Shown here: positions 1-59,646 of the stretch, piece after piece
Layout of the letters: every line of letters begins with the position of its first letter
How positions within the stretch are numbered: the first letter of the stretch is position 1
DNA from: Phoenix dactylifera
Taxonomy: Eukaryota > Streptophyta > Magnoliopsida > Arecales > Arecaceae
Direction: 5' to 3'
Assembly: GCF_009389715.1 (NCBI RefSeq)
Contig: NC_052404.1
Span: 8,578,745 to 8,642,744, forward strand
DNA length: 64,000 nucleotides
The notes under the pieces: model-generated
The model's database searches: none
The model's input: only the letters and a program-made list of their open reading frames with translations
What the model was told of the DNA's origin: nothing
Position numbers and translations under genes: made by a program

Positions 1-768
1 TGCCAACATGAATTACTGAGTCAAACAATTGGTGTAACACCTGCCAAAATCTGAACACAGAAACTACTCCATTGACAGGAGGGTTGCAACCACTAGGCTA
101 TGGCCTAGTTTGTAACCATATGGACACTCTCAAAAGAAATTTGTATAAAAGGACAACCTGAATAAATCTATTAATAAATTATGAGTTGATGGAACATAAA
201 ATGAGTAAGCTCGTTGAAGAATTTAAGAAATTGGAGTGCTGCCAATAACCTAGTATTTTGAATATGGTCTCTTCGATTAACAGTTCATTACAAATAGTTG
301 TTATCGATAAAAAAGATATACTAGATATCAATATTGTTGGTTTCTTAAGGACTGATTTTGATGCCTGAGTGCCATGGGATTTGAACAGAGGATGTTGGAA
401 AATTGCAAGTCAGAAGGATCCAGAGGAGACTGTGATTACATGATCTTAAGTTACTAAAAGTCACCTTTAAAAATTCATGCTTTTGAGCATACAGGAATTG
501 GGGGATCAACAACCATGAGTTACCCTTTCCACCTGTTCATTTCCTTAGCCTTCTCTTATTGGCAACTCCCATGTGTGAGAAATATCAAGCAGGTTCAGGA
601 ACCTGCATCCAAGCAGGGGCTAAATGTGTTCGAGAAATAAATAAAAGCATTGAGAAGTATCAATTGTCTGCATTGTAATACTCAAGCCAATACTAGAAAT
701 TTCTAGTTGGTGCACTATCAATTCCACTTAACTTAGAGGGATCTTGTCTGTATATAAGATGCACTTAC
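1..768. other. Probable first intron of the minus-strand gene; no exon seen
   Basis: Read on the minus strand this follows the donor site at the end of the lysine-rich exon (769-996), so it is probably intronic. I found no second exon, RNA gene or intact transposon here. The remaining exons must lie beyond the left edge. Confidence 0.4.
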
Positions 769-996
769 ACACTTTTCTTCGTAGACTTTATGCTTCTCCA
801 GCTCTATGTCAGATTCCAACACCCCGGCAATTTGAACATCTGCATTACCCGAACTGTGTGCATGGTGATTCTCCTCAGTGGCCGGACTATGGTTCTGCTC
901 CTGCATTGTCACTTCTCCTGCATTGGCATTAGCATCTTCCGCAGCTTTACTCTGACTGCCTTTCTTTTTCTTATTCTTCTTCTTCCTTCCATCCAT
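769..996 (-). CDS. First coding exon of a lysine-rich protein of unknown function (partial)
   Basis: The exon starts at ATG 996-994 and encodes about 76 residues beginning MDGRKKKNKKKKG. It continues with an Ala/Asn/Glu/His-rich hydrophilic stretch and ends near KHKVYEEKC. A good donor, GTGTAAGT on the minus strand, follows at 768; beyond it the frame soon stops, so this is one exon of a longer gene running off the left edge. The basic N-terminus could be a nuclear or nucleolar signal (inference). Plants have many coiled-coil proteins with a K-rich start like this, but I do not recognise a named family and assign no function. A leader probably lies upstream at 1537-2170. Confidence 0.6.
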
Positions 997-1560
997 ATTT
1001 CAGCTGGACAACAAATCAACAAAACTAATCCAACCTCTCCATTCAGCACCCAGTTTTGTGTCTCTTGCTGCAGTCATTAGAAGGCGTGTCAGATAGTTAT
1101 GGTTCGTATGTTACTAACTAAACGATCGAAGTAATTATATTCCTTGACAAGAATCTCATGTTATGCATATATTAGAGGAAAAAGTATTCAAACTTTAACA
1201 GGAACATAGAGTAAAATGGTGGTAATCCATCAGGATTCAAATTTATTGACAGAAACATGATTCATTCTAAGACAAATCAAGAAATCACAACAAGTTTCAT
1301 AGGCCAACATATCAACCAATTTGTTTCGAAGAAAGGTAATATTAGTCTAAGCTACCCAATCCTCCAGACACGAATATTATGGCAGACACAATGAAGTCCC
1401 AACAAATCCACACATACGCCGCATTGATCTGACAACGTAACGACTAATTCATGCAAATACAAGAAAAATCTGAAAAAGAAAAAAAGAATGAATGGATCGA
1501 ACGCTAATCCAACAGTACATCAGAGATCAAGAGTACCTAAATGCCCCGAAGAAAGAAACC
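997..1560 (-). other. Leader or leader intron of the minus-strand gene
   Basis: No coding sequence is visible. A plausible minus-strand splice donor (TTTAG then GTACTC) lies at 1537/1536, so most of this segment may be an intron inside the 5' leader between 1537 and the start-codon exon. This is inference from splice-like motifs only. Confidence 0.35.
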
Positions 1561-2110
1561 CTCCGATTCCGAGATCTAAAGCTGCAAGAACAAACCCGAG
1601 CTTAGCGATCAAGAATCCCCGGAACCAGAAAGATTAACAAATTCGCCCATTAACTGCAATTCTTGACGAAATCTAACCCTAAAACCAAGCTCGAGGATGG
1701 ACGGAGCTTGGATCGGAGGAAGAACGACGAGTTCTTGAGGTGCCCTCCGATTCTGAGATCTAAAGCTGCAAGAACAAACCCGAGCTTAGCGATCAAGAAT
1801 CCCCGGAACCAAAAAGATTAACAAATTCGCCCATTAACTGCAATTCTTGACGAAATCTAACCCTAAAACCAAGCTCGAGGATGGACGGAGCTCGGATCGG
1901 AGGAAGAACGACGAATTCTTGAGGTGCCCTCCGATTCCGAGATCTAAAGCTGCAGGAACAAACCCGAGCTTAGCGATCAGAATCCCCGGAACCAAAAAGA
2001 TTAACAAATTCGCCAATTAACTGCAATTCTGGACGAAATCTAACCCTAAAACCAAGCTCGAGGATGGACGGAGCTCGGATCGGAGGAAGAAGGACGAGTT
2101 CTTGAGGTGC
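1561..2110. repeat. 184-bp tandem repeat, three copies, in the gene's leader region
   Basis: Three consecutive units start with CTCCGATTC at 1561, 1745 and 1929, a period of 184 bp. They differ by a few substitutions and one missing base in the third unit, so the duplication is fairly recent. Each unit, read on the minus strand, contains a polypyrimidine-AG run (TTTGTTCTTGCAG) resembling a 3' splice site. The array sits between the promoter side and the start-codon exon of the minus-strand gene. It could offer alternative leader exons, or be neutral. Confidence 0.9.
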
Positions 2111-2514
2111 GATTCGACTGCGATCACCAAGAGCCGCGTGAAATTTCCGCTTCAAAACCCATCTAACGGCTCTTTGTCAGGGCTGCGAGACGCGATATCG
2201 CGGTGATAGGCCCGTCGAAGCCTCTCACAAAGTCAACTTTCGTTCGTACAATCCAAGCCGTTCATTCGGTGCATCCATCCGATTTGTGATTCCCGTGATC
2301 TTCCAAGTTACATCGGGAAAAGCATCGTAGAAAACGAGAGATTGGATGCGACCCGATCCATTTTCCACGGGAAATTTTAGCCAGCCTGCGACTCGATTGC
2401 GTTTATATCCCTCGGTAGGCACCGTACGGCGTGACGAGGGATAAGCGCAATTGATACATCATAGCATTTTAGCTAAATTTTTTCGATCAGAATATGTCAT
2501 AATTACATGAACAA
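2111..2514. other. Probable promoter side of the minus-strand gene
   Basis: This is moderately GC-rich, gene-proximal sequence upstream of the leader repeats. I see no recognisable gene, RNA or transposon. It ends where the duplicated 7.1-kb block begins. Confidence 0.3.
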
Positions 2515-5500
2515 ATGATCACAACACTCCGTGGATGACAAATCCTGCCTCTAAGTGATACTAAGGATATCATATTTATGGATCTTTTAAGTAGATGGAT
2601 GACTTCTCAAAATATATATAAATAATCAGATTATTCATTATTGAAGTGTTTGTGATGGCATTTTTTTTTGTTTTTGTTTTCTTCTAGATCATGGTGTCGT
2701 TGGTTGGTTTTTTTTTTTTTTTTTTGTTGTTGTTGTTGAATGGAATGAGACTGAGCTTAGAACCTTAGTAAAGATGCAAAAGGGTCACAGTGCGTCCTAA
2801 AATTTTGATCTCAATATGGTACATAAATGTTTACTGAGACCCAAATCTAGATGACCCTCTCGCGCCAATGATTGCTGCTAAAATGTATAAGACCGATAGG
2901 GCAAAGCGTGAGACCACGGCTTGTAGCTGGACACAGAAAAGTATTCCAAAGGATGAGTTTAAAGTTGCCGATATCGTTGTAAAAGTGTTTTGGCCTCATT
3001 TACAGGAGTTTTTGGAGAGCCAAAAAGCACTTTATAGCCCTTCAAAAGTACTTTTATATAAAATAGAGATGTTTGATAGAATTTTCGAAAAACTATTTTA
3101 GCTTTTTCAGAAAGCTGAATACAGCTTTTTGAAAGAAGCTTCATTTTAGAGCTTTTCGAATGAGCTTTTTCTATATACTAAATAGTCATGCTGCATAAAC
3201 TCCTTATTTTGTTGCTATTGAAGTTCTTTCGTTAAATGGGACAATGTTGTGTATTTGTTTTGATGCTTTCCCGTTGATGAGCAAATAAGCATAGTCTTAT
3301 TGGTGGCATTGTTCTTGATCTCCTTAAGATGAAGTATAAACCACAAATGTGCATTTGTGACACCTGGATTTGGAACCTACTAATCCAAATGGATAAACAA
3401 CCAACTAAACACGCTCATACAGACTTTGTTGAATTGATTTGACCCTTCATTGTTTGTTAGATAACTCTAAGAGAACATAGTTAATCTTACGATGCACTTG
3501 GTTCGAATTCACAAATATTTGCATTCAAACTACAACACACTATAGATGCAACATGACCTGAGCCTTGCATGTATGTATTTCTTAGTAAAAGAAATGTGAT
3601 ACATAGGTTTCACGTGCCCTCAGATGTATTAAACAATATTTTTGATTGAATTAATATAAAACTTCAACTAAAGTGATTAACAGAATGTTCATAATTATAT
3701 ATATGAAAATTTTCATTGTCAACGAATGCCTACAACATGCTACATGGAGTAGATCGATTGTGCTGACCCAAAATATAGAACAAATACCAAACAAAAAATA
3801 GAAAAAAGATGTTGGAAGAAAACTAATTAGGAGAAAAAAAATATAATTAAAAAATTGAATCATACAAAAAAAACTCTCTTTCACTTTTTACCAAGAAGGA
3901 CAACTTTCACTCTCTTATTTTTTATTTTATACAAATACTCCTATTCTTCTGACACCATTAATATGAATCATATTTATTTTAATTAAAATAAAATAAAATT
4001 TCAAAATTATTTTTTTGTCCTCCATCACGATCGCTTTATAAATATTTTCTTTTGCACATCTACCTATTAAGAATATTTTATTTATTTTAATTTGAAATCG
4101 TTAATTTTTTAATGGCATTAAATGGTGTGGGTACATGCAAAAATAGGGATAAAAAAAAGGTAAAACAACAAAACAAGTGTTTTAGGAGGATATACATGCA
4201 AATCAATATTTAGGAGGATATTCATGCAAAAAATCTCTAAAGGATAAATATTCTTGTATAATAAACCTAGAAATAGAATTTTAACGAATAAGCAATGAAT
4301 CTCAATGTCCATGCTAATCTCACAATCCAGATTTACATTTTTTAAGCTAATCAAATTTAATTTGTTACACGCACCAACTATCAAACTTTTTCTAAATTCC
4401 TCATCTATTACATCAAAAAGAAACATTGCAATGGCCACCAAAGATCATGCCTGAAACTTTGATGACGGAAGAGTTTTAAAAGAGCATTTAGCAAGGAACA
4501 TTACCTGGTTGCCACTTATTACCCAGATTGCAACATGCACCTCCATTTGGGCCCAACAGACGCGGTTGCTTCTGCTTCAAGCGGAAGCTCTCGCGTCTTC
4601 TTTAAACAAAATCTCGCCTTCCATGAAAAGTGAAGAAGGTACAAACAGACCGGCCTTCCTTGCCAACAATTTTCATGACTTAGGTTTTGTATTCAGTTTG
4701 CATGCAAGATGAAAGATTGCAAAATACTTATATACATACATATATGTATGCGCGAGCTTGTGATGAATGTGCCTACATTGTTTTAGACTATGTTGCAAAA
4801 CACATACATGCATGCATCCGTGAACGCACGTTGAAAGATGCATGCATGAATGCATCTACAACATTTTAATAAAATACTTAGAATCACTGTGTAAAAAAAT
4901 ATAGAATATATAAATAAATTTATCTTATCTATCTACTTAAGTTTTTGGGATAAATGATGATTTTAATATAGTACCAAAGCAGAGATCCTGAGTTCGTATT
5001 ATATTTTTACACTCTTTAATTTTATTATTAAAAATTTTACATGTTGTGCTCATCTATTAAAAAAATATATATATAGCACTGAAAAAATATAAGAAAATAT
5101 AAAATATATAAATAAATCTTATTTTAACACATTATTTTTCAATACTTTCTCGCCACGGTTTGGGAACGACGTGGAATAGTGTTTTACTCATGATTTGTTT
5201 TGAGCGGGCAAATTTTTTTACCAAAAGAAAAAGAAAGAAGGAAGCAGCATCATCGAATGCGTCACCTCCATCGGACGCTTCTGAAATAGGGGAAGTGGGA
5301 AGCTTTGCCTTCATCATCACGTGAAATTGTTTATCCGGAAGACTTTTTGGACGCTCAATCATTTGATTTAGATGAGCGGTCGATTACACATCTGAATGCT
5401 CGTACATGTGACTTGCTTCTGAACTCCCAACATTTTAGGTTAAATGCTCGCGTGCAAGGAAAAAAGAGCTCCGACCCAGTCCGAATATTGGACTGTACAC

Positions 5501-5826
5501 TTGTCACTTGACAGCATTATATATATTTGATGAGTACAGAAAACCTCACTCTTTTTCTTTTGGTAAAAGAAAACCACAGTTGTTCATTAAATATTTTTGC
5601 ATATCATCGATCAAAGCCTACCAGTTTGGTGCTCTTCTACCTGTGGAGGTGGTCTAGGGTTCGAATATCATCATATGGTCCAAAAAATTTTATAAGGCGA
5701 TTTTCGCACCCACATCATTCATTGCATAATATGATATGTATATTAACGATATCTTATTATATTGTGGAAATGAATAAAAATTATTTGTCTCCAAAATAAA
5801 TGATGTGATGGCCAAAAGATGCAGGC

Positions 5827-6122
5827 GTGGTAGTCTAGTGGTAAGGGGATGATAATTCCGTCCAAGTTGCCCGGGTTCGAAACGCACGGACGTCGATTAA
5901 ATTAGGGGCGATTATGCTTTCCTTCCACTTGTACCAAGGTGACGCTAGGGTGACGTACCCACACGTGTGGCGGTGAGCCCACGGGTCGGAGAAGGCACGC
6001 GAAACCTGCGACCTGTATCGAACATTCCCTGATGGAAGGGGGGCCCAGTGGGAGCTGCTACGCGGGTGGGCTGGTCCCTCCCCCTCCCCTCCTATTTTGC
6101 ACCAAAAAAAAAAAAAAAAAAG
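5827..6122 (+). mobile_element. tRNA-derived SINE with 12-bp target-site duplication (copy A)
   Basis: The 5' end looks like a tRNA gene with a pol III A box (TGGTAGTCTAGTGG) and B box (GGGTTCGAAAC). A body of about 230 bp and an A18 tail follow. The perfect 12-bp repeat AAAGATGCAGGC flanks it at 5815-5826 and 6123-6134, as expected after LINE-assisted insertion. It shares body motifs (ACGCGCGGGCGTCGATTAAA-like) with the elements at 18853, 32600 and 36501, so this is a dispersed family. It is not a functional tRNA, because the cloverleaf 3' half is replaced by the SINE body. Confidence 0.88.
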
Positions 6123-6896
6123 AAAGATGCAGGCCCTGTAGGATCAAGTGACTAAGGTGAAAATTTGATGAAGCTAAGTATGTAATAGAGTATAAAAAAT
6201 AGGGACAATGATCTGGTACTGTGTGTTAGCTGTATTCCACACCGACATTTTGTCATGGCTCTTTGACGTTAACGCGTATCTATCAAATTCTGTCGCTGGC
6301 TCGTCATTCACCTATCTGATCTCATGGGCGCAATGCAACTTCCAGTAGAATAAATGGATACGTTATAAAATAGATTTCTTGCTCCTTTGTTGCTTGAGGC
6401 CCAAGGTTGTTGTACTTGGTGACACACATGCTTGTACTATTACTTAGGCCCCAAGTCTACTAATATTGAGAGATTTACGTGCCAATGAGATCATCACCAA
6501 TGATTGGACGTTATATAAATAAAAAAAACAAATGATGTGGCGAAAAGATTATGAAAAAGTGAGAGTGATCACGCTTCTCTCATGTATTAAAGAACTTAAA
6601 TTAAAAGTAAAAACACAAACAAAAAAAATGCATCCATGCATGAGGACACAAGCACAAAAAATGCCATGCGCGATCCTCGTGTGTGTGTGTATATATATAT
6701 ACCTTTTCGTTTCTATCATTTACGAAAAAGTAGAACTAAAATTAAAATTAAAGAGAAGACATAAGAAAGCAGAGATCAAAAACGCCATTCTACGTTGCAC
6801 CTTTTTGAATTGGCCTTGTAACTTGTCTCCCATAAGGGACTTCTTTTTGAGTATTTTTTTGAGCTACCATAGCCTCGCTAAGATTTTGATGGAAGG

Positions 6897-7306
6897 GTGA
6901 TCTCTAGTGTTTGGAGTGCTTATGCAAAATACCACAAAGGTAGGGCGGGGCGGGGCCATGCTCGACGCGTGTTGCGGGCTCGAGCAATCATGCTGGAGAG
7001 TGATTCGGCTACGGTGATCGGTTGGATTCAGAAAGGCATCGACAGTGTGGGTGGGTGTCATCCTTTGCTTCAAGACATCTGAACTATGGTTAGTGGAGGC
7101 ATGGCATTCCAGGCCATGTATATTTATAGAGAGGCTAACGGAGCAACGAAGTAGGTGGTCTTGTATATGGCCAATCATTCGGAGGTGTCCTGTGGATTGG
7201 AAAGAGGGAGCTGCCTATAGCGCTCTATGATATTTTTTTTTTGAATATTTTCATACTAAAATTGTATGAATCAACCATTTTAGCCAAAAAAAAAAAAAAA
7301 AAAAAA
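6897..7306 (+). mobile_element. 5'-truncated LINE tail with dead RNase H-like domain (copy A)
   Basis: In two frames the sequence encodes pieces typical of the C-terminal RNase H-like domain of plant non-LTR retrotransposons: MLESDSATVIGWIQKGIDS, then CHPLLQDI, then after a frame change YIYREANGA and YMANHS. The frame shift after LLQDI and an in-frame TAG after the REANGA motif show it is dead. A short 3' tail ends in A21 (7286-7306), as LINE insertions do. Confidence 0.75.
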
Positions 7307-7854
7307 GCCACGGAGGCAGCAAGTCAATAGCTACTGCTTAAGAAATTGGGATACTAAGTGCAAGTAAAGGGATATCCATCTGGCTGTTTATATATATACT
7401 CATACAGTGCAAGGCGCGTGGTGGATCATGCTCTTGTATGGAAATTTCATAGAGGTTGTCTCTATACAAGCATTAATTTTTTTTCAAGGGAAGGAAATCA
7501 TATGGCATTGCTTTCGTTTTCACATTTGGCACCAACGCAGGAGAATTACCGTAAAGTAAACAAACTCAAAAACCCTTTTTAACATACTAGGATGGCTCAC
7601 TCAAAAAATTTCAGTTGCACTTCTATGTTCTCAGAGTTTACTTAAGGATTTGTAAAGCCAGGAAGTTAATCAAATAAGATTTATTATTGCGTATCATATA
7701 TCGATATCCTTGCAACTTGCCTACTTAAAATCGTTTTCCATTGAGCTCATATGACTGCATTTTTCTAATGTTACATATTAAGAGACCTCTGGTGCTGAAA
7801 GTTGCAAAAATTTCAAACTGTCGTAGAAAAATATGATTCTCCTCAACGTTTCTG

Positions 7855-8040
7855 AGAGCATTTGGTATAGAATAATTTTTCCAAGATCAAGAATGATATT
7901 TGGTTGCATCATGGTAATTCTACATAGCACCGATGTCAAATTGCCTCCACTCAAATCACCATCAAACCCAGTGATGGAATACAAGTCCTTGAGGTCGGGA
8001 TCCAAGAGCATTCTAGAAGAGTGATCTAGGCCTGAAATTT
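7855..8040. repeat. GCATTTGGTAT-type dispersed repeat (copy A)
   Basis: The segment starts GCATTTGGTATAG and contains TTTGGTTGCATCATGGTAAT, then CCCAGTGATGGAATAC and CTTGAGGTCGGGAT. The same order of motifs occurs at 54258-54480. The two are diverged copies of one non-coding element, probably a MITE-like or other non-autonomous transposon. I did not find clear terminal inverted repeats. Confidence 0.6.
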
Positions 8041-8107
8041 GAGAATAAAAATTCCTTCAATTCAGAAAAAAAATTGATATATCAACATGCTAATAATATA
8101 TTATATC

Positions 8108-8129
8108 AATTATTTATATATATATATAT

Positions 8130-8166
<37 letters not shown>

Positions 8167-8200
8167 ATTATATATATATATATATATATATTATATTTAT
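8108..8200. repeat. Compound microsatellite (TA)n(TG)7(GA)10(TA)n (copy A)
   Basis: Consecutive runs of TA, seven TG, about ten GA and TA again. Copy B has one GA unit more, one of the few differences between the two 7.1-kb blocks. AT-rich non-coding DNA follows to about 8500. Confidence 0.95.
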
Positions 8201-8519
8201 GATATATATTATACTATAATATATTTATATTATTAATAAATTAATAAATATATTTTTATGGAATATATTAATGATAGTTTTGGTATTTATGGCCAATGAT
8301 TACAGGTTACTCAAGAAATCTTTAATTGTTGAAACATGGTGTATTAAACACGATGATCAAAGATTAAATTACTCAAGATAAGAATTATTAATGATTTAAG
8401 ATTACTTTGATGATTCCATTTGGATGCACAATTGTCTCAGGCTTGTTGACAAAACCAAAACCAAGCGGAAGCGGTTGAACCGTTCGCCCCTCGCTATCTT
8501 CTTTCGTGCTGGGTCGGAT

Positions 8520-9635
8520 TTGTCGTGCCACGTCTCTTTCCGAAACGCGCACGTGAAAATCCAACGGCCAGAAGTCGCAGCTCTTCTACGTGGCATAATC
8601 CTATGCCTAACATCTTGCCCGCAACGACAAGCCTACATAAGTGCTGACGTGGCATCAAACCAAAAGACGAAATTACCTCTTCTAATTGTTGTATTTCGTT
8701 CCACTACCAGGGTTCCATGAATCAGACGGCCTATAATCATTGATGATCATTGATAGAGATACGCGTCGCATCAAATGCACAGCGCCGCACTAAACGAATC
8801 GTAATAGTAATAGAAAATTGGAATTTTTTATTAATTAAACGGTTCAAACGAGTCACTGGTCCAGCTTTTAGATTAGTGGGCTCGAGATGTACCATGAGAT
8901 CAGACGGTTTCGGCGGGCTAGACCGGAGCCTCGAACCGAGATGGAGACCATGGCAGCACGCCGGTGGACCCGACAGCGGCGGCTGGTCCTTCCTCGTGCC
9001 GAACTGATGACGCCTGTCGCTCCTGAAATTACCAAAATGCCCTTCCACGGGGTTGCTCCTCCCGAAGCAGTTACACCGTTCTCTTATTACGTTGTAAGTT
9101 TTGATTGGTTAGTCCGGCAAACAACGTTGGTGGGCTCCACAGGAGATGAGAACGGCATTCCTGAGGTTACGCTCGTTTCCGTAATACAGATCTGGGATGT
9201 ACGATCAGAGCCGTTGAAACCATGAGTCCCATTCTGAGACTACAATTAGTGGAAAGGGGGCATTTCGGGAATTGAGTAGATGATAAGGTCGCAGTACCTC
9301 GCCACTCCCCCACCTTCAACCTTTTCCTTTATTTGTCCACTTCTCTGCTCCCCTCGTCGCGCGCTCTCTCTCTCGCCCGAGATCCGGTTGGAACTCTTCT
9401 AGGTCTGTGTCTCTTAATCGAAAACTAGTGTGTTCTCCAAAGAAAAAGAGTGATCGAAGCTTCTTTTTTTTTCCGTTAATCTTGGGGATTTTCTGGATCT
9501 TTGAGGTGGGAATAATTAAGAGATGCCTCTCTAGTGATTTTTACTGTATTTTTTTTGAAATTTTTGATCCTTGAGCTGTTCTCAACTCGGGGTTCTTGAA
9601 ATCGTTTTGAGAATTCTTTTGATGAAACCGCGAAT
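8520..9635 (+). promoter_or_regulatory. CRF promoter and leader, copy A (truncated by gap)
   Basis: This is the same sequence that lies directly upstream of the CRF gene in copy B, but here it ends 34 bp before the start-codon position because the assembly gap intervenes. It includes four ACGT-core motifs and a pyrimidine-rich leader (CTCTCTCTCTC near 9363). No coding part of the CRF gene is present on this side of the gap. Confidence 0.7.
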
Positions 9636-9735
9636 NNNNNNNNNNNNNNNNNNNNNNNNNNNNNNNNNNNNNNNNNNNNNNNNNNNNNNNNNNNNNNNNN
9701 NNNNNNNNNNNNNNNNNNNNNNNNNNNNNNNNNNN
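9636..9735. other. Assembly gap of exactly 100 N
   Basis: The run of N is exactly 100 bases, the conventional placeholder for a gap of unknown size. It lies precisely between the end of block copy A and the start of copy B. Confidence 0.99.
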
Positions 9736-12700
9736 ATGATCACAACACTCCGTGGATGACAAATCCTGCCTCTAAGTGATACTAAGGATATCATATTTAT
9801 GGATCTTTTAAGTAGATGGATGACTTCTCAAAATATATATAAATAATCAGATTATTCATTATTGAAGTGTTTGTGATGGCATTTTTTTTTGTTTTTGTTT
9901 TCTTCTAGATCATGGTGTCGTTGGTTGGTTTTTTTTTTTTTTTTTTGTTGTTGTTGTTGAATGGAATGAGACTGAGCTTAGAACCTTAGTAAAGATGCAA
10001 AAGGGTCACAGTGCGTCCTAAAATTTTGATCTCAATATGGTACATAAATGTTTACTGAGACCCAAATCTAGATGACCCTCTCGCGCCAATGATTGCTGCT
10101 AAAATGTATAAGACCGATAGGGCAAAGCGTGAGACCACGGCTTGTAGCTGGACACAGAAAAGTATTCCAAAGGATGAGTTTAAAGTTGCCGATATCGTTG
10201 TAAAAGTGTTTTGGCCTCATTTACAGGAGTTTTGGAGAGCCAAAAAGCACTTTATAGCCCTTCAAAAGTACTTTTATATAAAATAGAGATGTTTGATAGA
10301 ATTTTCGAAAAACTATTTTAGCTTTTTCAGAAAGCTGAATACAGCTTTTTGAAAGAAGCTTCATTTTAGAGCTTTTCGAATGAGCTTTTTCTATATACTA
10401 AATAGTCATGCTGCATAAACTCCTTATTTTGTTGCTATTGAAGTTCTTTCGTTAAATGGGACAATGTTGTGTATTTGTTTTGATGCTTTCCCGTTGATGA
10501 GCAAATAAGCATAGTCTTATTGGTGGCATTGTTCTTGATCTCCTTAAGATGAAGTATAAACCACAAATGTGCATTTGTGACACCTGGATTTGGAACCTAC
10601 TAATCCAAATGGATAAACAACCAACTAAACACGCTCATACAGACTTTGTTGAATTGATTTGACCCTTCATTGTTTGTTAGATAACTCTAAGAGAACATAG
10701 TTAATCTTACGATGCACTTGGTTCGAATTCACAAATATTTGCATTCAAACTACAACACACTATAGATGCAACATGACCTGAGCCTTGCATGTATGTATTT
10801 CTTAGTAAAAGAAATGTGATACATAGGTTTCACGTGCCCTCAGATGTATTAAACAATATTTTTGATTGAATTAATATAAAACTTCAACTAAAGTGATTAA
10901 CAGAATGTTCATAATTATATATATGAAAATTTTCATTGTCAACGAATGCCTACAACATGCTACATGGAGTAGATCGATTGTGCTGACCCAAAATATAGAA
11001 CAAATACCAAACAAAAAATAGAAAAAAGATGTTGGAAGAAAACTAATTAGGAGAAAAAAAATATAATTAAAAAATTGAATCATACAAAAAAAACTCTCTT
11101 TCACTTTTTACCAAGAAGGACAACTTTCACTCTCTTATTTTTTATTTTATACAAATACTCCTATTCTTCTGACACCATTAATATGAATCATATTTATTTT
11201 AATTAAAATAAAATAAAATTTCAAAATTATTTTTTTGTCCTCCATCACGATCGCTTTATAAATATTTTCTTTTGCACATCTACCTATTAAGAATATTTTA
11301 TTTATTTTAATTTGAAATCGTTAATTTTTTAATGGCATTAAATGGTGTGGGTACATGCAAAAATAGGGATAAAAAAAAGGTAAAACAACAAAACAAGTGT
11401 TTTAGGAGGATATACATGCAAATCAATATTTAGGAGGATATTCATGCAAAAAATCTCTAAAGGATAAATATTCTTGTATAATAAACCTAGAAATAGAATT
11501 TTAACGAATAAGCAATGAATCTCAATGTCCATGCTAATCTCACAATCCAGATTTACATTTTTTAAGCTAATCAAATTTAATTTGTTACACGCACCAACTA
11601 TCAAACTTTTTCTAAATTCCTCATCTATTACATCAAAAAGAAACATTGCAATGGCCACCAAAGATCATGCCTGAAACTTTGATGACGGAAGAGTTTTAAA
11701 AGAGCATTTAGCAAGGAACATTACCTGGTTGCCACTTATTACCCAGATTGCAACATGCACCTCCATTTGGGCCCAACAGACGCGGTTGCTTCTGCTTCAA
11801 GCGGAAGCTCTCGCGTCTTCTTTAAACAAAATCTCGCCTTCCATGAAAAGTGAAGAAGGTACAAACAGACCGGCCTTCCTTGCCAACAATTTTCATGACT
11901 TAGGTTTTGTATTCAGTTTGCATGCAAGATGAAAGATTGCAAAATACTTATATACATACATATATGTATGCGCGAGCTTGTGATGAATGTGCCTACATTG
12001 TTTTAGACTATGTTGCAAAACACATACATGCATGCATCCGTGAACGCACGTTGAAAGATGCATGCATGAATGCATCTACAACATTTTAATAAAATACTTA
12101 GAATCACTGTGTAAAAAAATATAGAATATATAAATAAATTTATCTTATCTATCTACTTAAGTTTTTGGGATAAATGATGATTTTAATATAGTACCAAAGC
12201 AGAGATCCTGAGTTCGTATTATATTTTTACACTCTTTAATTTTATTATTAAAAATTTTACATGTTGTGCTCATCTATTAAAAAAATATATATATAGCACT
12301 GAAAAAATATAAGAAAATATAAAATATATAAATAAATCTTATTTTAACACATTATTTTTCAATACTTTCTCGCCACGGTTTGGGAACGACGTGGAATAGT
12401 GTTTTACTCATGATTTGTTTTGAGCGGGCAAATTTTTTTACCAAAAGAAAAAGAAAGAAGGAAGCAGCATCATCGAATGCGTCACCTCCATCGGACGCTT
12501 CTGAAATAGGGGAAGTGGGAAGCTTTGCCTTCATCATCACGTGAAATTGTTTATCCGGAAGACTTTTTGGACGCTCAATCATTTGATTTAGATGAGCGGT
12601 CGATTACACATCTGAATGCTCGTACATGTGACTTGCTTCTGAACTCCCAACATTTTAGGTTAAATGCTCGCGTGCAAGGAAAAAAGAGCTCCGACCCAGT

Positions 12701-13046
12701 CCGAATATTGGACTGTACACTTGTCACTTGACAGCATTATATATATTTGATGAGTACAGAAAACCTCACTCTTTTTCTTTTGGTAAAAGAAAACCACAGT
12801 TGTTCATTAAATATTTTTGCATATCATCGATCAAAGCCTACCAGTTTGGTGCTCTTCTACCTGTGGAGGTGGTCTAGGGTTCGAATATCATCATATGGTC
12901 CAAAAAATTTTATAAGGCGATTTTCGCACCCACATCATTCATTGCATAATATGATATGTATATTAACGATATCTTATTATATTGTGGAAATGAATAAAAA
13001 TTATTTGTCTCCAAAATAAATGATGTGATGGCCAAAAGATGCAGGC

Positions 13047-13342
13047 GTGGTAGTCTAGTGGTAAGGGGATGATAATTCCGTCCAAGTTGCCCGGGTTCGA
13101 AACGCAACGGACGTCGATTAAATTAGGGGCGATTATGCTTTCCTTCCACTTGTACCAAGGTGACGCTAGGGTGACGTACCCACACGTGTGGCGGTGAGCC
13201 CACGGGTCGGAGAAGGCACGCGAAACCTGCGACCTGTATCGAACATTCCCTGATGGAAGGGGGGCCCAGTGGGAGCTGCTACGCGGGTGGGCTGGTCCCT
13301 CCCCCTCCCCTCCTATTTTGCACCAAAAAAAAAAAAAAAAAG
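13047..13342 (+). mobile_element. tRNA-derived SINE with target-site duplication (copy B)
   Basis: Counterpart of the element at 5827-6122, flanked by the same 12-bp repeat at 13035-13046 and 13343-13354. It differs by one extra A just after the B box and one fewer A in the tail. Confidence 0.88.
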
Positions 13343-14115
13343 AAAGATGCAGGCCCTGTAGGATCAAGTGACTAAGGTGAAAATTTGATGAAGCTAAGTA
13401 TGTAATAGAGTATAAAAAATAGGGACAATGATCTGGTACTGTGTGTTAGCTGTATTCCACACCGACATTTTGTCATGGCTCTTTGACGTTAACGCGTATC
13501 TATCAAATTCTGTCGCTGGCTCGTCATTCACCTATCTGATCTCATGGGCGCAATGCAACTTCCAGTAGAATAAATGGATACGTTATAAAATAGATTTCTT
13601 GCTCCTTTGTTGCTTGAGGCCCAAGGTTGTTGTACTTGGTGACACACATGCTTGTACTATTACTTAGGCCCCAAGTCTACTAATATTGAGAGATTTACGT
13701 GCCAATGAGATCATCACCAATGATTGGACGTTATATAAATAAAAAAAACAAATGATGTGGCGAAAAGATTATGAAAAAGTGAGAGTGATCACGCTTCTCT
13801 CATGTATTAAAGAACTTAAATTAAAAGTAAAAACACAAACAAAAAAAATGCATCCATGCATGAGGACACAAGCACAAAAAATGCCATGCGCGATCCTCGT
13901 GTGTGTGTGTATATATATATACCTTTTCGTTTCTATCATTTACGAAAAAGTAGAACTAAAATTAAAATTAAAGAGAAGACATAAGAAAGCAGAGATCAAA
14001 AACGCCATTCTACGTTGCACCTTTTTGAATTGGCCTTGTAACTTGTCTCCCATAAGGGACTTCTTTTTGAGTATTTTTTGAGCTACCATAGCCTCGCTAA
14101 GATTTTGATGGAAGG

Positions 14116-14526
14116 GTGATCTCTAGTGTTTGGAGTGCTTATGCAAAATACCACAAAGGTAGGGCGGGGCGGGGCCATGCTCGACGCGTGTTGCGGGCTC
14201 GAGCAATCATGCTGGAGAGTGATTCGGCTACGGTGATCGGTTGGATTCAGAAAGGCATCGACAGTGTGGGTGGGTGTCATCCTTTGCTTCAAGACATCTG
14301 AACTATGGTTAGTGGAGGCATGGCATTCCAGGCCATGTATATTTATAGAGAGGCTAACGGAGCAACGAAGTAGGTGGTCTTGTATATGGCCAATCATTCG
14401 GAGGTGTCCTGTGGATTGGAAAGAGGGAGCTGCCTATAGCGCTCTATGATATTTTTTTTTTTGAATATTTTCATACTAAAATTGTATGAATCAACCATTT
14501 TAGCCAAAAAAAAAAAAAAAAAAAAA
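14116..14526 (+). mobile_element. 5'-truncated LINE tail (copy B)
   Basis: Counterpart of 6897-7306 with the same frame shift, the same TAG in the RNase H-like domain and an A21 tail at 14506-14526. Confidence 0.75.
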
Positions 14527-15074
14527 GCCACGGAGGCAGCAAGTCAATAGCTACTGCTTAAGAAATTGGGATACTAAGTGCAAGTAAAGGGATATCCATC
14601 TGGCTGTTTATATATATACTCATACAGTGCAAGGCGCGTGGTGGATCATGCTCTTGTATGGAAATTTCATAGAGGTTGTCTCTATACAAGCATTAATTTT
14701 TTTTCAAGGGAAGGAAATCATATGGCATTGCTTTCGTTTTCACATTTGGCACCAACGCAGGAGAATTACCGTAAAGTAAACAAACTCAAAAACCCTTTTT
14801 AACATACTAGGATGGCTCACTCAAAAAATTTCAGTTGCACTTCTATGTTCTCAGAGTTTACTTAAGGATTTGTAAAGCCAGGAAGTTAATCAAATAAGAT
14901 TTATTATTGCGTATCATATATCGATATCCTTGCAACTTGCCTACTTAAAATCGTTTTCCATTGAGCTCATATGACTGCATTTTTCTAATGTTACATATTA
15001 AGAGACCTCTGGTGCTGAAAGTTGCAAAAATTTCAAACTGTCGTAGAAAAATATGATTCTCCTCAACGTTTCTG

Positions 15075-15260
15075 AGAGCATTTGGTATAGAATAATTTTT
15101 CCAAGATCAAGAATGATATTTGGTTGCATCATGGTAATTCTACATAGCACCGATGTCAAATTGCCTCCACTCAAATCACCATCAAACCCAGTGATGGAAT
15201 ACAAGTCCTTGAGGTCGGGATCCAAGAGCATTCTAGAAGAGTGATCTAGGCCTGAAATTT
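15075..15260. repeat. GCATTTGGTAT-type dispersed repeat (copy B)
   Basis: Counterpart of 7855-8040 in the second block, related to the element at 54258-54480. Confidence 0.6.
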
Positions 15261-15348
15261 GAGAATAAAAATTCCTTCAATTCAGAAAAAAATTGATATA
15301 TCAACATGCTAATAATATATTATATCAATTATTTATATATATATATAT

Positions 15349-15386
<38 letters not shown>

Positions 15387-15746
15387 TATTATATATATAT
15401 ATATATATATATTATATTTATGATATATATTATACTATAATATATTTATATTATTAATAAATTAATAAATATATTTTTATGGAATATATTAATGATAGTT
15501 TTGGTATTTATGGCCAATGATTACAGGTTACTCAAGAAATCTTTAATTGTTGAAACATGGTGTATTAAACACGATGATCAAAGATTAAATTACTCAAGAT
15601 AAGAATTATTAATGATTTAAGATTACTTTGATGATTCCATTTGGATGCACAATTGTCTCAGGCTTGTTGACAAAACCAAAACCAAGCGGAAGCGGTTGAA
15701 CCGTTCGCCCCTCGCTATCTTCTTTCGTGCTGGGTCGGATTTGTCG

Positions 15747-15876
15747 TGCCACGTCTCTTTCCGAAACGCGCACGTGAAAATCCAACGGCCAGAAGTCGCA
15801 GCTCTTCTACGTGGCATAATCCTATGCCTAACATCTTGCCCGCAACGACAAGCCTACATAAGTGCTGACGTGGCAT
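15747..15876 (+). promoter_or_regulatory. Cluster of four ACGT-core motifs upstream of CRF
   Basis: CCACGTCTC (about 15749), CACGTGAAA (15771), TACGTGGCAT (about 15808) and GACGTGGCAT (about 15867) fall within 130 bp, roughly 1 kb upstream of the CRF start codon. ACGT cores, especially ACGTGGC, are binding sites for plant bZIP factors, including ABA-response factors. A role in regulating this gene is inference from position and density. Confidence 0.45.
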
Positions 15877-16889
15877 CAAACCAAAAGACGAAATTACCTC
15901 TTCTAATTGTTGTATTTCGTTCCACTACCAGGGTTCCATGAATCAGACGGCCTATAATCATTGATGATCATTGATAGAGATACGCGTCGCATCAAATGCA
16001 CAGCGCCGCACTAAACGAATCGTAATAGTAATAGAAAATTGGAATTTTTTATTAATTAAACGGTTCAAACGAGTCACTGGTCCAGCTTTTAGATTAGTGG
16101 GCTCGAGATGTACCATGAGATCAGACGGTTTCGGCGGGCTAGACCGGAGCCTCGAACCGAGATGGAGACCATGGCAGCACGCCGGTGGACCCGACAGCGG
16201 CGGCTGGTCCTTCCTCGTGCCGAACTGATGACGCCTGTCGCTCCTGAAATTACCAAAATGCCCTTCCACGGGGTTGCTCCTCCCGAAGCAGTTACACCGT
16301 TCTCTTATTACGTTGTAAGTTTTGATTGGTTAGTCCGGCAAACAACGTTGGTGGGCTCCACAGGAGATGAGAACGGCATTCCTGAGGTTACGCTCGTTTC
16401 CGTAATACAGATCTGGGATGTACGATCAGAGCCGTTGAAACCATGAGTCCCATTCTGAGACTACAATTAGTGGAAAGGGGGCATTTCGGGAATTGAGTAG
16501 ATGATAAGGTCGCAGTACCTCGCCACTCCCCCACCTTCAACCTTTTCCTTTATTTGTCCACTTCTCTGCTCCCCTCGTCGCGCGCTCTCTCTCTCGCCCG
16601 AGATCCGGTTGGAACTCTTCTAGGTCTGTGTCTCTTAATCGAAAACTAGTGTGTTCTCCAAAGAAAAAGAGTGATCGAAGCTTCTTTTTTTTTCCGTTAA
16701 TCTTGGGGATTTTCTGGATCTTTGAGGTGGGAATAATTAAGAGATGCCTCTCTAGTGATTTTTACTGTATTTTTTTTGAAATTTTTGATCCTTGAGCTGT
16801 TCTCAACTCGGGGTTCTTGAAATCGTTTTGAGAATTCTTTTGATGAAACCGCGAATCGAATCCTATAGTTTGATCTGTGGCTCCGTGCG

Positions 16890-28489: not shown

Positions 28490-31165
28490 TCACCGCCCTT
28501 TAGGGTTCACGATCTCTGAGAACACGGCGCTTGGTGTCAGTCCATCAGAGTCCTCGCTTGCAAGGCTTCGCCCTCCGATGCTCACTGTGGTGGTTGTGGT
28601 TGTGGTTGTGCTCAATTCGACCGACGGCTCATTCGAGTCTTTCTTCCCCACCATCATCAGAGGCGTGCCTCCATCTGATACTGCACCACCAATGAGACTT
28701 CCACTTTCCTCTGCACCCTCTTGTAGCTGGAGTGCAAACTCAAGGTTCCAGAGGACATCACCCATTGATGGTCGCTCGATTCCCTGATCAGCCACACACT
28801 TCTCTGCAGTTTCTGCAAACTTCTTGAAGCATGGTGGAGCAATCTTGCCCTTGAGATAGGGATCGATGATCTGATCGAGAATGCCCTTCTTCTGGCAGTG
28901 CAGTGCCCACTCGGCCAAGCTCACTTGTTCCTTTGGAAGCGTTGGGTTCAGAGCTGGCCGAGCACACAGGACCTCAAACAATACAACCCCAAAAGAATAC
29001 ACATCCGATTTGTCGGTAAGTTGCTGTCGCCGGAAGTACTCAGGATCAAGATAACCAAAGCTTCCCTTCACCACCGTGCTGACATGAGTGTGGTCGAGTG
29101 TAGGACCAGTCTTTGAAAGCCCAAAATCTGAAACCTTTGCAACCCATTTATCATCCAACAGAATGTTGGTAGTCTTCACATCTCGGTGGATGATAGTGTG
29201 CTTGGCACCAGTGTGGAGGTAGTGAAGCCCCCGAGCAGCACCAATGCAGATCTCAAGCCGCTGCTTCCAAGGGAGAGGTGGCTTCTGGGTCTTGTAAAGG
29301 TGCTCGCGGAGTGTCCCATGGGCCATGTAGTCGTAAATCAGAATCATCTCGCAGTTCTCCTCGCAGTAGCCGATCAAAGAGACAAGATGGCGGTGACGGA
29401 GCTTGGACAGCATCTCGATCTCAGTCTGAAATTCATGGACACCTTGCTCAGACATTGGGTTCCCACGCTTGATTGCAACTTCAGTGGAGCCGCCATCTAT
29501 TTCCCCACGGTAGACCTTTCCGAACCCGCCAACACCAAGAAGGAGGGCCTCGTCGAAGCCATTGGTGGCAGCCTCTATCTCTGCAAACGAGAAGTGGCGG
29601 CAAAGGTTGGACGGGAGCGACGGGGCTGAGCTCCCCGTTGTGTTCGTCTTGGCTGACGCCGCTGAGTGCGAGTTGCCATAGAGAGCGAGCGGCAGCCAAC
29701 CTGATGGCCCGTCACCCGTGCCTCCTGCATCCTTCCCTCCCTTCTTCTTTTGCCTGCAAAACCCAAGCAGGCAAAAGCAGGCAGCCAACAGGACGACGAC
29801 CCCACCGATCACCCCACCAGCAATCACCGGAGCTTTACTCTTGAACTTGCCATTATGGTGATTGAAAACCTCATCAGGATTCACATCTGGCTTGGGACGT
29901 GGTTCTGGATTGGGCCCAGCAAGACTTCCATTGCTGTTTTGCAGCTTAAAGACCTCCATCCCATTCAAGATAGCATCATACATCTCTGGCTTGGTTGAAG
30001 GATCAGGATGGAGTGCAACCCACAGATCCATCAAGCCGGTCGCTGAAGGGATCAGCACATAGTCCTTGTACACTGGGATGCCAATTCCATTGCTCCACCC
30101 AATCACATCGGCGCCATCTTGGGCAGTCTGGTTGTTGAGATAGATATCGAAGACCCTCTGGTTTATCTTTGTTGTTGGATACTGGATCTCGCAGAAATGC
30201 AGCCTCACAAGGTGGTAGAACCCAGCATCCACTGGAAGGATCCATGTGAGATTATAGTTCAGATTGACTTGGGCATCAGGCCCCATCGACCGCGCTGTCG
30301 AGTATACATCCACCGGCGCGATATATGCCGGCAAAGTGGTCGGGTACTTGATTGTAACATTCGGGTCGTTGGAGTATGAGACCCCGATCGCAGCCCCGTA
30401 GATGTATGGGGAGTCATCATCCCATGAACGAAACAAGCCAGAATCTTGGATGGGAGAAATGGCTTGCCCGCCCACATTCAACCTGTGGACGGTCTCGATG
30501 GCCCAGTCCTGGTCGATGGGGTACTCTGTGGACGTCCCAGCAAGCAATGCGCTGCCGGTGGTAAAGATGTCAGGGATGGAGACGATCTCGATACCGTTCA
30601 CGAAGGCATAAGAATGGGGGTGGTCGGCAGAAGGGGTGAAGGTGAGGTTGAGACCGCTGGAGGAGACATTGACGGAAAATTCGCGGACGAGGTAGGCAAA
30701 GTTAAGGGCATCGGCGGTGAGGTAGGCGCTGAAGTTTTGGAGTAGGGTGGAGGATGCGGCGGTGACGGAGAAGAAGGCATCGGAGGCGGCGTGGCCGGAG
30801 TAGTTGGAAGGATAGAAGTAAAGGCGAATAAATTTCCGGCCTGCACCGAGGGGGAAGGTGTAGGTGTAGGGGGAGGTGAAGAACCGGGCAGTCAAGTAGG
30901 GGACTTGCGGGACCGACGAGTCCTGGGACGAGGCCGTGAGGCCAACGCCATTAATGGAGGGGGCGTACTTGGAGCCGGCGTCGGCGGTCCAGATGCGGCC
31001 ATCGGTGTCCTTGTCCTGCCCGGAGGCACCGCAGTTAAGTAAAATGTTGTCCCGTGGGACGTAGGTGCTGTTGGTGCTGTCGGCCGCCGAGATTTTGCCG
31101 ACGGCCAGCAACAAGAAGAAGGAAGCGCAGAGAAGGATGGGAGGTAAAGCTCGAAACCTCCTCAT
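28490..31165 (-). CDS. FER: FERONIA-type receptor kinase (CrRLK1L family)
   Basis: Single coding exon of 891 residues, starting at ATG 31165-31163. An in-frame TTG 12 bases upstream lengthens the open frame but is not a normal eukaryotic start. Order: signal peptide (1-28); extracellular malectin-like region (about 40-410) with N-glycosylation sites and RLNVGG; membrane segment near 446-470 ([20 protein letters not shown]); cytoplasmic Ser/Thr kinase with GVGGFG at 544-549, VAIK Lys566, HRD Asp662 and DFG Asp680, all intact. The C-terminus [20 protein letters not shown] and ending NPKGR are FERONIA hallmarks. FERONIA is the plasma-membrane receptor for RALF peptides, sensing cell-wall state and steering growth, pollen-tube reception and immunity. 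A run of eight Thr at about 854-861 in the variable tail is unusual. A leader intron is likely. Confidence 0.96.
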
Positions 31166-31670
31166 GAGGAAAAACAAAGTCTTTGTGGGGGAACAAAAAA
31201 AGAGCTAAGATGACGGCTTCTACTGAGAAATACACAGAAGAGGAGGATTGAGGGAGGTGAGGGTTTACGAAACAGTAAAAGAACGGATCTTTGGGGAACC
31301 AGGGTTTCGATCCATGAGGAAACACCCTAGATCCAACAGATCGGACTTTGGACAACGAATTTAGAGGGGAACCTACGATTTCTAGCAGGAAATCAGCAAT
31401 CTAATTCAGCTAAATTAAGCAGACTAGAAGTAGATCCAGCCGGAAGTAACTGCCAAAAAAACAAAGCAAGATACAAGAAGAAATGGACGATTTAGCTACG
31501 GGAAAAACTCAAAAAAAATCAACAGAAATTAACAAAAATCCAATGATATATGCCATAAAAACGCTGAAGGAGTACCTGAGACGAGCTCCGAGAGCTGAGA
31601 GCGAGGAGAGACGGATAGAAAACAGAAGAGAGAAGGGGGTTTCTAAAACCACGGGATTGGGCTTTCTGTA
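31166..31670 (-). other. 5' leader of FERONIA with probable intron
   Basis: A good minus-strand donor (TCTCAG then GTACTCC) lies at 31576/31575, followed in the minus direction by AT-rich sequence. A candidate acceptor CCTGCTAG is at 31383-31382. An intron in the leader is common for FERONIA genes. The exact acceptor is uncertain. Confidence 0.45.
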
Positions 31671-50100: not shown

Positions 50101-52702
50101 GATATGATTGGATTTTAGTCCTCGCACTACCTCAATGAATTATAGGCTTTCTTTTCCCTCCCTGTTTTCTTGCAAAGGATAATTGTTGTTAACAGGACCC
50201 AACTATTTTCAGTTCTTGTCAGTTTGGTCTTGACCTTGGTCGAAAAGGCAATGTAGTAGTTTTGGGCTTGCCAGTTTCTGTTTTTTTAAAACTGTTTGGA
50301 TTCTTGATACTACTTTTACCCTTAGTTAATGAGGCCTATGATGATCAATATATTGCCTACATTGCTTGATTCAGTTGTATGATAAGAACATCCTTTTATT
50401 CTGAGGCCTTCTCATAAATAATCAAAAAGAAAAAATATTCTATTTTGTATGTGTAGGCATCTCAGAGCTTCAAAAGGTCAGATTGGTTCTGCACCTCTCC
50501 AAGACTAATGTCCCATATCACTAGGATCATCATTGTTGAATTTTAATCCTTTCACTACATCAATGAATTTCTGGCATTCTTCTCCCTCCCTTTTTTCTTA
50601 AAAAAGTTAAGATTGCTGTTACAGCTCAGACCCAACAATTTTTCATGTTCAGTCAGTTCGATTTTGAGTCTTTTGACCGAGGCATGTGGTATTGTCCCAT
50701 GCTAGCCATACTGTATGCTAGTATGGTACCAAGGTTCGGTTCGGTATATTAGCCAAATTGGTCCGTACTGGTCAAAATGGGGCGAAACCACCCTATATAG
50801 ATCCGATTTTGGACAGTACCATAGTTGGGAGTGAGAAAACTGTTAGAAGCCGTCTTGTTACCGAGTGCGTACTATATTGTACCCGACTGTACCATTTCAA
50901 ATTGGTACGCTTTTTTGTACCAGTTTTGCGAGCTTTGCTTTTGACTTTGGTTTGCTTTAGATCTTTTGTAAAAGGTGATTCAGTTTTGGGCTTTTTTATT
51001 TATACTTTTTCTTTTTTTTCTTTTTTCTTTACAAATAAATCAGTTTGAATTCTGGTTACTGCTTTCATCTTTCTGTAGGGTATGAGGTCTATGATACTCA
51101 ACCAACATGTTGCCTGCATTGCTAGATTCATTCGCATGATAGGAATTTCCTCTTTTTTTGAGGCCTGTGCATGCCATAATATTGTGCGCGCTCTCACTGA
51201 ACCTGGTTGTTTTGGAGGTACAATCAGGTTTAGTCTGGCTCTCTTGATTGTGGTAAGATATCAGGACATAATATTGGATTTCTTTCAATCCTTTAGATGG
51301 GGTTCCTTCATATCGTTTTCCTGAAAATATTGGATTGCTGTTATGATTTGAATGCACTTGTTTTTAGATCCAGTCAGTTTGGGTTAAAGATGGGTTGGGT
51401 CTGAATCTTTTAGAGAGGGCGGACTAGTTTTTGAATCTTCATGTTTTGCCCTTTTTTTTAAAATATGATCAGTTTTAGTCCTCCTTTCTTATAGCTCCCT
51501 TTTTTCAAAAAATATAAAAACCTATGATCATCAACTAGTATATTGCCTAGATTGATTTATTTGTTTGATAAGAATATCGTACCATTCTGAGGGTTTTTGG
51601 AAGGAATACAAGGCATGAATGTCATTATGTGTTCTATCTTGCATCTCCCTCATGCTGTTTATATGGTTGGACCTTCCAGCAGGAGATCATGTTGGGTTTG
51701 GAGGATCTCTTATTACTGCGGTCCTACATCAAGATTGGATTTTTCTGAGAGTTTTGATATTGCTGTTTTCCGGTTTTGACAATTTGGTTTCAGATTGGGC
51801 TGAGTCTTAGTTTTTAAGAATAGGTTGTATGCTTCGTAGGCGGTATACTTCATAATTTTTTCCCCTTATCCCTCCTTTGCCCCTTTTTTTTTCACAAGGA
51901 TTGCTTTTACTGTGTCACATGTGGTCAACCCAGCCCTCAATACTGGCCTATGATGATTGCAGAATTTTTGCCTACATTGTTTGACTACTTCATTGTGATA
52001 AGTGTTTGCTTTGCAAGTTGCAACTCTCCTGAGGCCAGCATATAGATGACCTGTTCTGCTGTGGTTATTTTTCACAATTTTGCTGCTCTGTTTTGATGCT
52101 AAAATTGGGATTTAATCATATATGTCGGTTGAATGCAAATAAGTGGACTCCATCAGGCTTGTCATGGCAATTCTTGTCTGGAACACCAGGATAAGTAGAT
52201 ATTTGTTTTCTCGTTGGATATTTTGCAACAGCGATCAGAAAGGTGTGCTTTCAAATTGCTCTAACATCATTTGGTGGCTTTATGTTTCACCAAAAATAAA
52301 AAAAAGCAGCCACATGTTTCACCCCCAAAAAAAAGCAGCAGCTACATGAGTGCACCAAATGTATACTCAAAAAGATGGTGAATTATAAACATGTTTTGAG
52401 GAGGAAAAAGTTACACAGAGAAGCCACTATGTATACTGTAGTTAACTATTGCCCTGCTCTTTTTTCAGCTCACCTAAAGCATCAAAGACCAAACTTAGCA
52501 TTTGTTTACTTGGTCTCAAATCATTTACCGTCTGAATTCCATATGGATTTTGTTTTGTGCCTGTGGCTGCTGTTGATATTCAAATTCTTTTTTAATATTG
52601 AATCAATTTGTTTCTTTCTTTCAGTGTGGTTCTGCACGGTCCGTTGCACCCATCAAGGCTGGCTTTGTTGCAAGAGTTGGACGTCGGAAGGCTGGGACGT
52701 GA
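38766..52702 (+). CDS. EIF2B (beta subunit): Translation initiation factor eIF2 subunit beta
   Basis: Nine coding exons: 38766-38810, 39103-39208, 39352-39407, 39510-39552, 39728-39825, 43017-43162, 47407-47549, 48983-49068 and 52625-52702. All have GT-AG borders and consistent phase, 801 bases in total for 266 residues. eIF2 delivers initiator Met-tRNA to the 40S ribosome; the beta subunit binds eIF5 and eIF2B through lysine blocks. Two such blocks are visible (seven Lys in exon 2, six in exon 3). The conserved core runs from [18 protein letters not shown] through [27 protein letters not shown] and [18 protein letters not shown]2-C2 zinc finger follows (CNGC then, 18 residues later, CEQC) and the C-terminus is [11 protein letters not shown]. 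Length matches other plant eIF2 beta proteins. Introns 5 (3.2 kb), 6 (4.2 kb) and 8 (3.6 kb) are swollen by repeats. S6K lies tail to tail downstream. The symbol here means eIF2 beta, not eIF2B. Confidence 0.95.
40171..40366. repeat. 98-bp tandem repeat, two copies, in eIF2 beta intron 5
   Basis: GATATAAAGCTGGGGAAGGA at 40171 and GATATAAAGCTGGAGAAGGA at 40269 begin two units with a period of 98 bp that match almost throughout (AACTTTGAGATATACCAGTA in both). The first unit overlaps the end of a 62-codon frame at 40015-40200. Confidence 0.9.
41195..41870. repeat. Large GC-rich element of the GTACC-type family in intron 5
   Basis: Both ends are crowded with words such as CCGGTTCCGGTCCG, ACCGGTACGGTTCGG and CGGTTCGATACCGGTTCC. 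The interior is a purine-rich run of AAGAGG repeats and then a GC-rich part. The 221-codon minus-strand frame across it is low-complexity and not a gene. Confidence 0.5.
43938..44105 (+). repeat. GTACC-rich dispersed repeat in eIF2 beta intron 6
   Basis: Begins AAGGTTCGCCGTCTTGGTAT and continues CCCCGTACCGGTACTATTCT, CAGTGTCGGTACACGGTACG and CGATACGGTATGAGA. It is the clearest copy of this family in the window. Confidence 0.7.
44138..44232. repeat. TA/TG microsatellite in intron 6
   Basis: Alternating TATATATA and TGTATA/TGTG runs over about 95 bases just downstream of the GTACC-type repeat. Confidence 0.9.
44955..45435. repeat. GTACC-type element with GA-rich interior, intron 6
   Basis: The ends carry GGTACCATGGCACATACCGG and GTGCCGGTAACTGACTGGGC-like words. 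The interior is dominated by GAGAGGGA runs, with CTCATTTGCTCGAGC repeated at about 45167 and 45308. It resembles the larger elements at 41195 and 49466. Confidence 0.5.
45511..45612. repeat. 102-nt perfect-geometry hairpin in eIF2 beta intron 6
   Basis: TTGCTCCATTAATGTTTTAA begins a 34-base arm (45511-45544) whose reverse complement is at 45579-45612 with two mismatches, leaving a 34-base loop. A direct copy of the right arm plus about 35 further bases recurs at 45714-45785. The geometry is like a small-RNA precursor, but expression is not shown. Confidence 0.85.
49466..50076. mobile_element. 611-bp foldback element in eIF2 beta intron 8
   Basis: Two arms, about 49590-49746 and 49795-49935, are imperfect reverse complements. 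For example, TAAGTGAAAGTTGGCAAAT pairs with ATTTGCCGACTTTCACTTA, and TGCAGAGGAGG with CCTCCTCTGCA-like sequence. The loop holds a T22 run. Outside the arms are GA-rich and CT-rich tails and CCGGTTCCGG-type termini. CTTGTATTCATG (49454-49465) and CTCGTATTCTATG (50077-50089) may be a target-site duplication. The 190- and 145-codon frames crossing it are by-products of the palindrome. Confidence 0.75.
50715..50935. repeat. GTACC-type dispersed repeat, intron 8
   Basis: Contains TATGGTACCAAGGTTCGGTT, GGTCCGTACTGGTCAAAATG, GACAGTACCATAG and AATTGGTACGC. A diverged member of the family seen at 43938. Confidence 0.55.

Positions 52703-55665: not shown

Positions 55666-59646
<3,981 letters not shown>

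Follow-up and report, generated by a model that had tools for sequence, protein, structure and literature searches.

In excerpts of their 2021 study, Rhie et al. (PMC8081667) describe false homotype duplications as overlapping sequence at contig boundaries in overlap-layout-consensus assemblies, often of corrected-read length; after scaffolding, it stands as a tandem duplication whose copies are separated by a gap. One of their examples was attributed to an error in FALCON, since corrected. An extract of Ko et al. (2022; PMC9516828) describes homotype cases as lacking heterozygous k-mers. The present analysis concerns two near-identical 7.1-kb blocks in the genome of the date palm, Phoenix dactylifera, which lie on either side of a run of N upstream of an AP2-domain gene, in a 64-kb stretch of the record C13 (C13:8578745-8642744, hereafter the window). 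Judged from the sequence, the pair is very probably one locus written twice, that is, an unmerged overlap of neighbouring contigs. The genome searched comprised 773,078,369 bases in 2,391 contigs.

In parts of Hazzouri et al. (2019; PMC6794320), the date palm assembly of a BC4 male is given a size of 772.3 Mb; it was built from PacBio reads with FALCON-Unzip, polished with Quiver/Arrow and with Pilon (Illumina reads), and anchored by ALLMAPS to 18 linkage groups using a low-resolution genetic map, the sequenced tree being a fourth-generation backcross to the cultivar Barhee. By default, ALLMAPS pads 100 Ns between scaffolds, as stated in an extract of its description (PMC4305236). The assembly in hand matches the one of Hazzouri et al. 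in its sizes, and C13 is probably linkage group 13.

Two near-identical blocks flanking a 100-N run

The only N run in the window measures exactly 100 N. It is flanked by blocks A and B, each of 7,121 bp, arranged in tandem and in the same orientation (Table 1), the last base of block A directly preceding the run and the first base of block B directly following it. When the blocks were aligned end to end, there were no mismatches and seven indel events amounting to 8 gap bases (99.89% identity); six of these events involved single bases and the seventh one GA unit. The alignment reproduced the coordinates and counts of the original prediction, which had reported two 7,121-bp blocks flush with exactly 100 N, and its failure to find any substitution was borne out over the 7,121 bp. 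It had also counted about seven changes of homopolymer or dinucleotide length: seven length changes were indeed found, but that at 5886/13106, where a lone A faces AA, does not lie in a homopolymer. Five of the six single-base events fell in runs of at least five bases, which make up 6.7% of the bases of block A (binomial P ~8e-6), and the substitution divergence of the two blocks was below about 0.04% (95% bound). Since ALLMAPS pads 100 Ns by default, the N run most likely marks two contigs placed side by side by the map, and not 100 missing bases.

A search of the genome with the whole block was swamped by dispersed repeats, and two block segments, 2515-3900 and 6900-8060, were therefore searched instead (best 40 of 1,411 and best 40 of 776 candidates scored, respectively). 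Among the matches listed, both segments had full-length matches at blocks A and B only, which excludes a chance similarity of the two blocks; the remaining listed matches were short dispersed repeats with 71-87% identity. A 30-mer that spans the junction of block B with its right flank had a single occurrence in the genome, at that place. The comparison of 400 bp on either side of positions 2515 and 16857 revealed 0 bp of microhomology and no match longer than 9 bp. Moreover, no head-to-tail junction between the copies was observed, as only the 100 N stand between A and B. An AP2-domain open reading frame (ORF), presumably of a CRF gene, starts 33 bases past the end of block B, which thus forms its upstream region.

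The arrangement resembles the homotype class as portrayed in the cited excerpts of Rhie et al. (PMC8081667): facing contig ends bear the two copies in tandem, separated by a gap, FALCON is the reported assembler, and haplotype-specific substitutions are absent, although seven length changes remain. The cases of that study were recognized by read depth and k-mer copy number, whereas the present one was recognized from sequence alone. The gap between copies and the danger that genes or regulatory DNA are counted double are shared with the cases in the extract of Ko et al. (PMC9516828), which, unlike ours, come from vertebrate assemblies checked with linked reads. Blocks A and B, with 0 substitutions, show none of the heterozygous single-nucleotide polymorphisms (SNPs) between copies that mark the heterotype class, nor do they show what marks a true tandem, namely an observed junction and borders that are independent of contig ends and often carry homology. 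The pair fits a homotype false duplication at a contig boundary and is almost certainly a commonplace artefact of an already described type, not a real duplication. Its 7.1 kb compare with a mean subread length of 11.2 kb and a read N50 of 18.5 kb (PMC6794320, in the parts cited). A literature search for earlier reports of false duplications in this assembly listed no paper naming date palm (8 of 906 papers shown), which does not prove that no such report exists.

The sequence of events was very probably as follows. Two neighbouring FALCON primary contigs would have overlapped in dovetail fashion by 7.1 kb where their ends face each other, an overlap left unmerged by the assembler, and the genetic-map scaffolder, presumably ALLMAPS, would then have set both contigs side by side with its fixed 100-N filler. 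The seven length differences would most likely be residual consensus errors of separately built contig ends, and read depth over each block would be expected at about half of normal.

For two of the differences it was possible to tell which copy deviates. At 3009/10230, the length found in block A was kept in 10/10 fetched dispersed relatives (10 of the 11 plus-strand rows starting at or before query position 13, among 41 non-self rows), block B being one base short. At 5886/13106, it was kept in 6/6 fetched relatives of the short interspersed nuclear element (SINE) described below, which were the six best rows of the whole-block genome search, block B being one base longer. Both deviations thus lie in block B, 494 and 3,370 bp into the right contig as counted from its free end, and this would fit a weak consensus near a contig end and would also be compatible with new mutations in B. 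At 7233/14452, lengths in eight relatives of the repeat family were too variable to polarise the difference.

Substitutions in tandem arrays and at other contig ends

Six longer tandem arrays inside the contigs of the window were compared in eight pairings, and substitutions were found in every one: 4, 6 and 6 between the 184-bp units, and 2, 5, 4, 33 and 19 in the arrays with units of 300, 98, 64, 163 and 86 bp, respectively. The contrast with the block pair is strong, yet not uniform.

As a second control, the first 4 kb of the contigs C100, C60 and C150 were searched against the genome. Those of C100 matched C128 with 98% identity (47 substitutions and 10 indels), and the first 1,141 bp of C128 matched C100:52099-53241 with 96% identity, while C100:25500-28500 gave no match against the C128 start. 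The unplaced contigs C100 (1-53241) and C128 (1-27398), compared at their ends only, meet head to head in an overlap that is flush on either side; they differ in length by about 26 kb and look like an unmerged allelic overlap. This pair shares with A/B a reciprocal unmerged overlap of contig ends, flush at both, and differs from it in its substitutions and in its size (53 kb versus 27 kb). The first 4 kb of C60 matched C194:392336-396355 with 95% identity; C194 has 487,619 bp, and its tail from the C60 match onward, of 95 kb, is about the size of C60 (99,452 bp), so that C60 may be a haplotig retained among the primary contigs. For C150, no second whole-length copy of the first 4 kb was present in the genome. 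Second copies of the whole 4 kb were therefore found for 2/3 contig starts (C100 and C60), at 95-98% identity, and near-identical ones like A/B for 0/3; the allelic-looking duplicates, of which there are two pairs only, diverge by 2-5%, unlike blocks A and B.

In addition, contig starts were compared all against all, together with the window; the set consisted of 18 nuclear starts, the window and the C2390 and C2391 starts, out of 2,391 contigs. There were 10 pairs of at least 400 bp, none exceeding 95.1% identity, in a comparison of very low power. C2391, the last genome record (132,500 bp), carries 2,500 N in its first 10 kb; the other 19 contig starts fetched had no N.

Weighing the alternatives

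The flush ends of the blocks are to be expected from a dovetail overlap, which yields them automatically, whereas a true duplication needs two contig ends at its borders, so that under such a duplication they would be coincidences. Mutation rates bear on the same question. At the rates given for Arabidopsis in an extract of PMC10731980 (substitutions 7e-9 and indels 1.3e-9, or 9.55e-9 and 0.89e-9), which correspond to about 5 to 10 substitutions per indel, a series of seven indels and no substitution would have P ~4e-6 to 5e-8. Three of the seven sites are long, fast-mutating repeats, making this P optimistic, and for the other four P would be ~8e-4 to 7e-5. Such a series is improbable as biology. 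A true 7.1-kb tandem duplication upstream of the CRF-like AP2 gene would have to be very recent, with only repeat lengths changed, and the near-identical copies would have caused the contig break. The copies are indeed written in tandem and in the same orientation, and identical tandem copies that are nearly read-long can break an assembly. Nevertheless, both inner borders coincide exactly with contig ends, filler N stands in place of an observed junction, the borders have neither homology nor microhomology, and substitutions occur in the longer tandem arrays that were compared within the window, all of which makes this explanation very unlikely. A dispersed repeat family or transposable element sitting by chance at both contig ends has a negligible probability. 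The block does hold several dispersed repeats, but the listed relatives are short and 71-87% identical, and the two long segments of the block were full-length at A and B only among listed matches; for the segments 2515-3900 and 6900-8060 the idea was rejected on this ground.

Closer to the unmerged overlap of a single allele is a heterotype overlap, in which the contig ends would be two alleles of one locus, nearly identical by descent. The original prediction had set alleles aside on the ground that allelic copies normally show SNPs. The C100/C128 pair, with 47 substitutions in 4 kb, bears this out, but a backcross tree may be identical by descent in some regions, and stretches of this kind are expected in a fourth-generation Barhee backcross (PMC6794320, in the parts cited). 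Moreover, some of the differences (A18/17, T10/11 and GA) concern long repeats, the kind of sequence in which alleles diverge most quickly. Against two alleles stand the 0 substitutions, to be compared with the C100/C128 count and with the 95% identity of C60/C194, as well as the differences T5/T4 and A1/A2, which are unlikely to be allelic, block B departing there from the length kept in 10/10 and 6/6 relatives. We consider the two-allele explanation improbable. It would still describe one locus: two alleles identical by descent look like one allele written twice, so that both readings mean a single locus, and with the two taken together it is almost certain that one locus was written twice.

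Several observations weigh against the single-allele overlap. The location of the differences in homopolymers is not discriminating in itself, as real indels favour repeats too, and only 2 of the 7 differences could be polarised. Pilon polishing ought to have eliminated many indels; the seven left would correspond to ~Q33 per copy if shared equally, slightly more than expected but plausible near the end of a contig. The segments on which the copy-number test is based (1,386 and 1,161 bp) leave out 4,574 of the 7,121 bp in the block, and the whole-block genome search (best 39 of 7,208 candidates) returned dispersed repeats only, with the block itself unlisted. Among the tandem controls, the 300-bp pair shows 4 indels against 2 substitutions, and short arrays (units of 15-21 bp) at 100% identity in the window were outside the control set. 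Finally, that the assembly in hand is the BC4-male assembly of Hazzouri et al. is something we infer. Even so, the flush ends, the 100 N, the lack of substitutions, the segments found in two places and the borders without homology all agree with the proposal of the original prediction, an unmerged overlap of a single locus, which we retain as the favoured explanation.

Features of the locus and consequences of merging

The element at 5827-6125 has the appearance of a tRNA-derived repeat, with a B-box-like GGTTCGAA as well as an A-rich tail in its alignment; the terms SINE and B box are taken, as assumptions, from the original prediction. Two scanned ORFs that lie wholly inside block A had no Pfam family match (the block B ORF at 12963-13367 was outside the scan).

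Table 1. Contig ends, blocks, length differences and other features around the 100-N run (window positions)
Feature	Position	Strand	Position in block B	Evidence or remark
Left contig, right-hand end	1-9635	.		last 7,121 bp are block A; N starts at 9636
Block A, probable terminal overlap of left contig, redundant copy	2515-9635	+		alignment, segment searches
100-N join of fixed size	9636-9735	.		without information on true distance
Block B, probable initial overlap of right contig	9736-16856	+		runs on into AP2 ORF
Right contig, left-hand part	9736-64000	.		without further N in window
Difference, T5 in A, T4 in B	3009 (run 3009-3013)		10230 (run 10230-10233)	
Difference, lone A in A, AA in B	5886		13106 (AA 13106-13107)	
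Difference, A18 in A, A17 in B	6104		13325	
Difference, T7 in A, T6 in B	6854		14074	
Difference, T10 in A, T11 in B	7233		14452	
Difference, A8 in A, A7 in B	8066		15286	
Difference, (GA)n tract	8144		15363	one GA unit more in block B
Dispersed repeat, ~300 bp	3928-4234	+	also present	listed relatives 76-86%
SINE copy (presumed), tRNA-derived-looking	5827-6125	+	~13047-13346	long dispersed relatives 80-85%
Dispersed repeat ending in poly-A run	6953-7306	+	also present	listed relatives 71-79%
AP2-domain ORF, 257 aa	16890-17663	+		Pfam AP2, E 1.7e-14

Elsewhere in the window, three 184-bp tandem units with ~97% identity occupy 1559-2110 of the left contig, some 400 bp to the left of block A. 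An ORF of 895 aa on the minus strand (28490-31177) combines malectin-like and kinase domains and corresponds to a receptor-like kinase, and ORF pieces at 55666-59646 (minus strand), in which a protein kinase and a kinase C-terminal domain were recognized, are possibly exons of one AGC-type kinase gene. Two plus-strand matches to the Rfam C/D-box small nucleolar RNA SNORD34 (50331-50411 and 51942-52039; 45.7 and 39.2 bits, cutoff 38) lie 1.6 kb apart.

Since 2/3 of the contig starts searched had a second, diverged copy (95-98%), leftover overlaps and haplotigs may occur frequently in the assembly, but a sample of three starts is too small to tell how frequently. For the locus itself, the result is a correction and not a discovery. 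If left uncorrected, 7.1 kb of C13 would pass for a tandem duplication preceding the AP2 gene, the repeats would be double-counted, and short-read mapping would be ambiguous at both blocks. Merging would shorten C13 by 7,121 bp plus the 100 N (~7.2 kb). Because one locus is written twice by either reading, the repeats of the block and the upstream elements, including the SINE-like copy, are to be counted once, and the CRF-like AP2 gene would have one upstream region, block B, and not two, block A being redundant.

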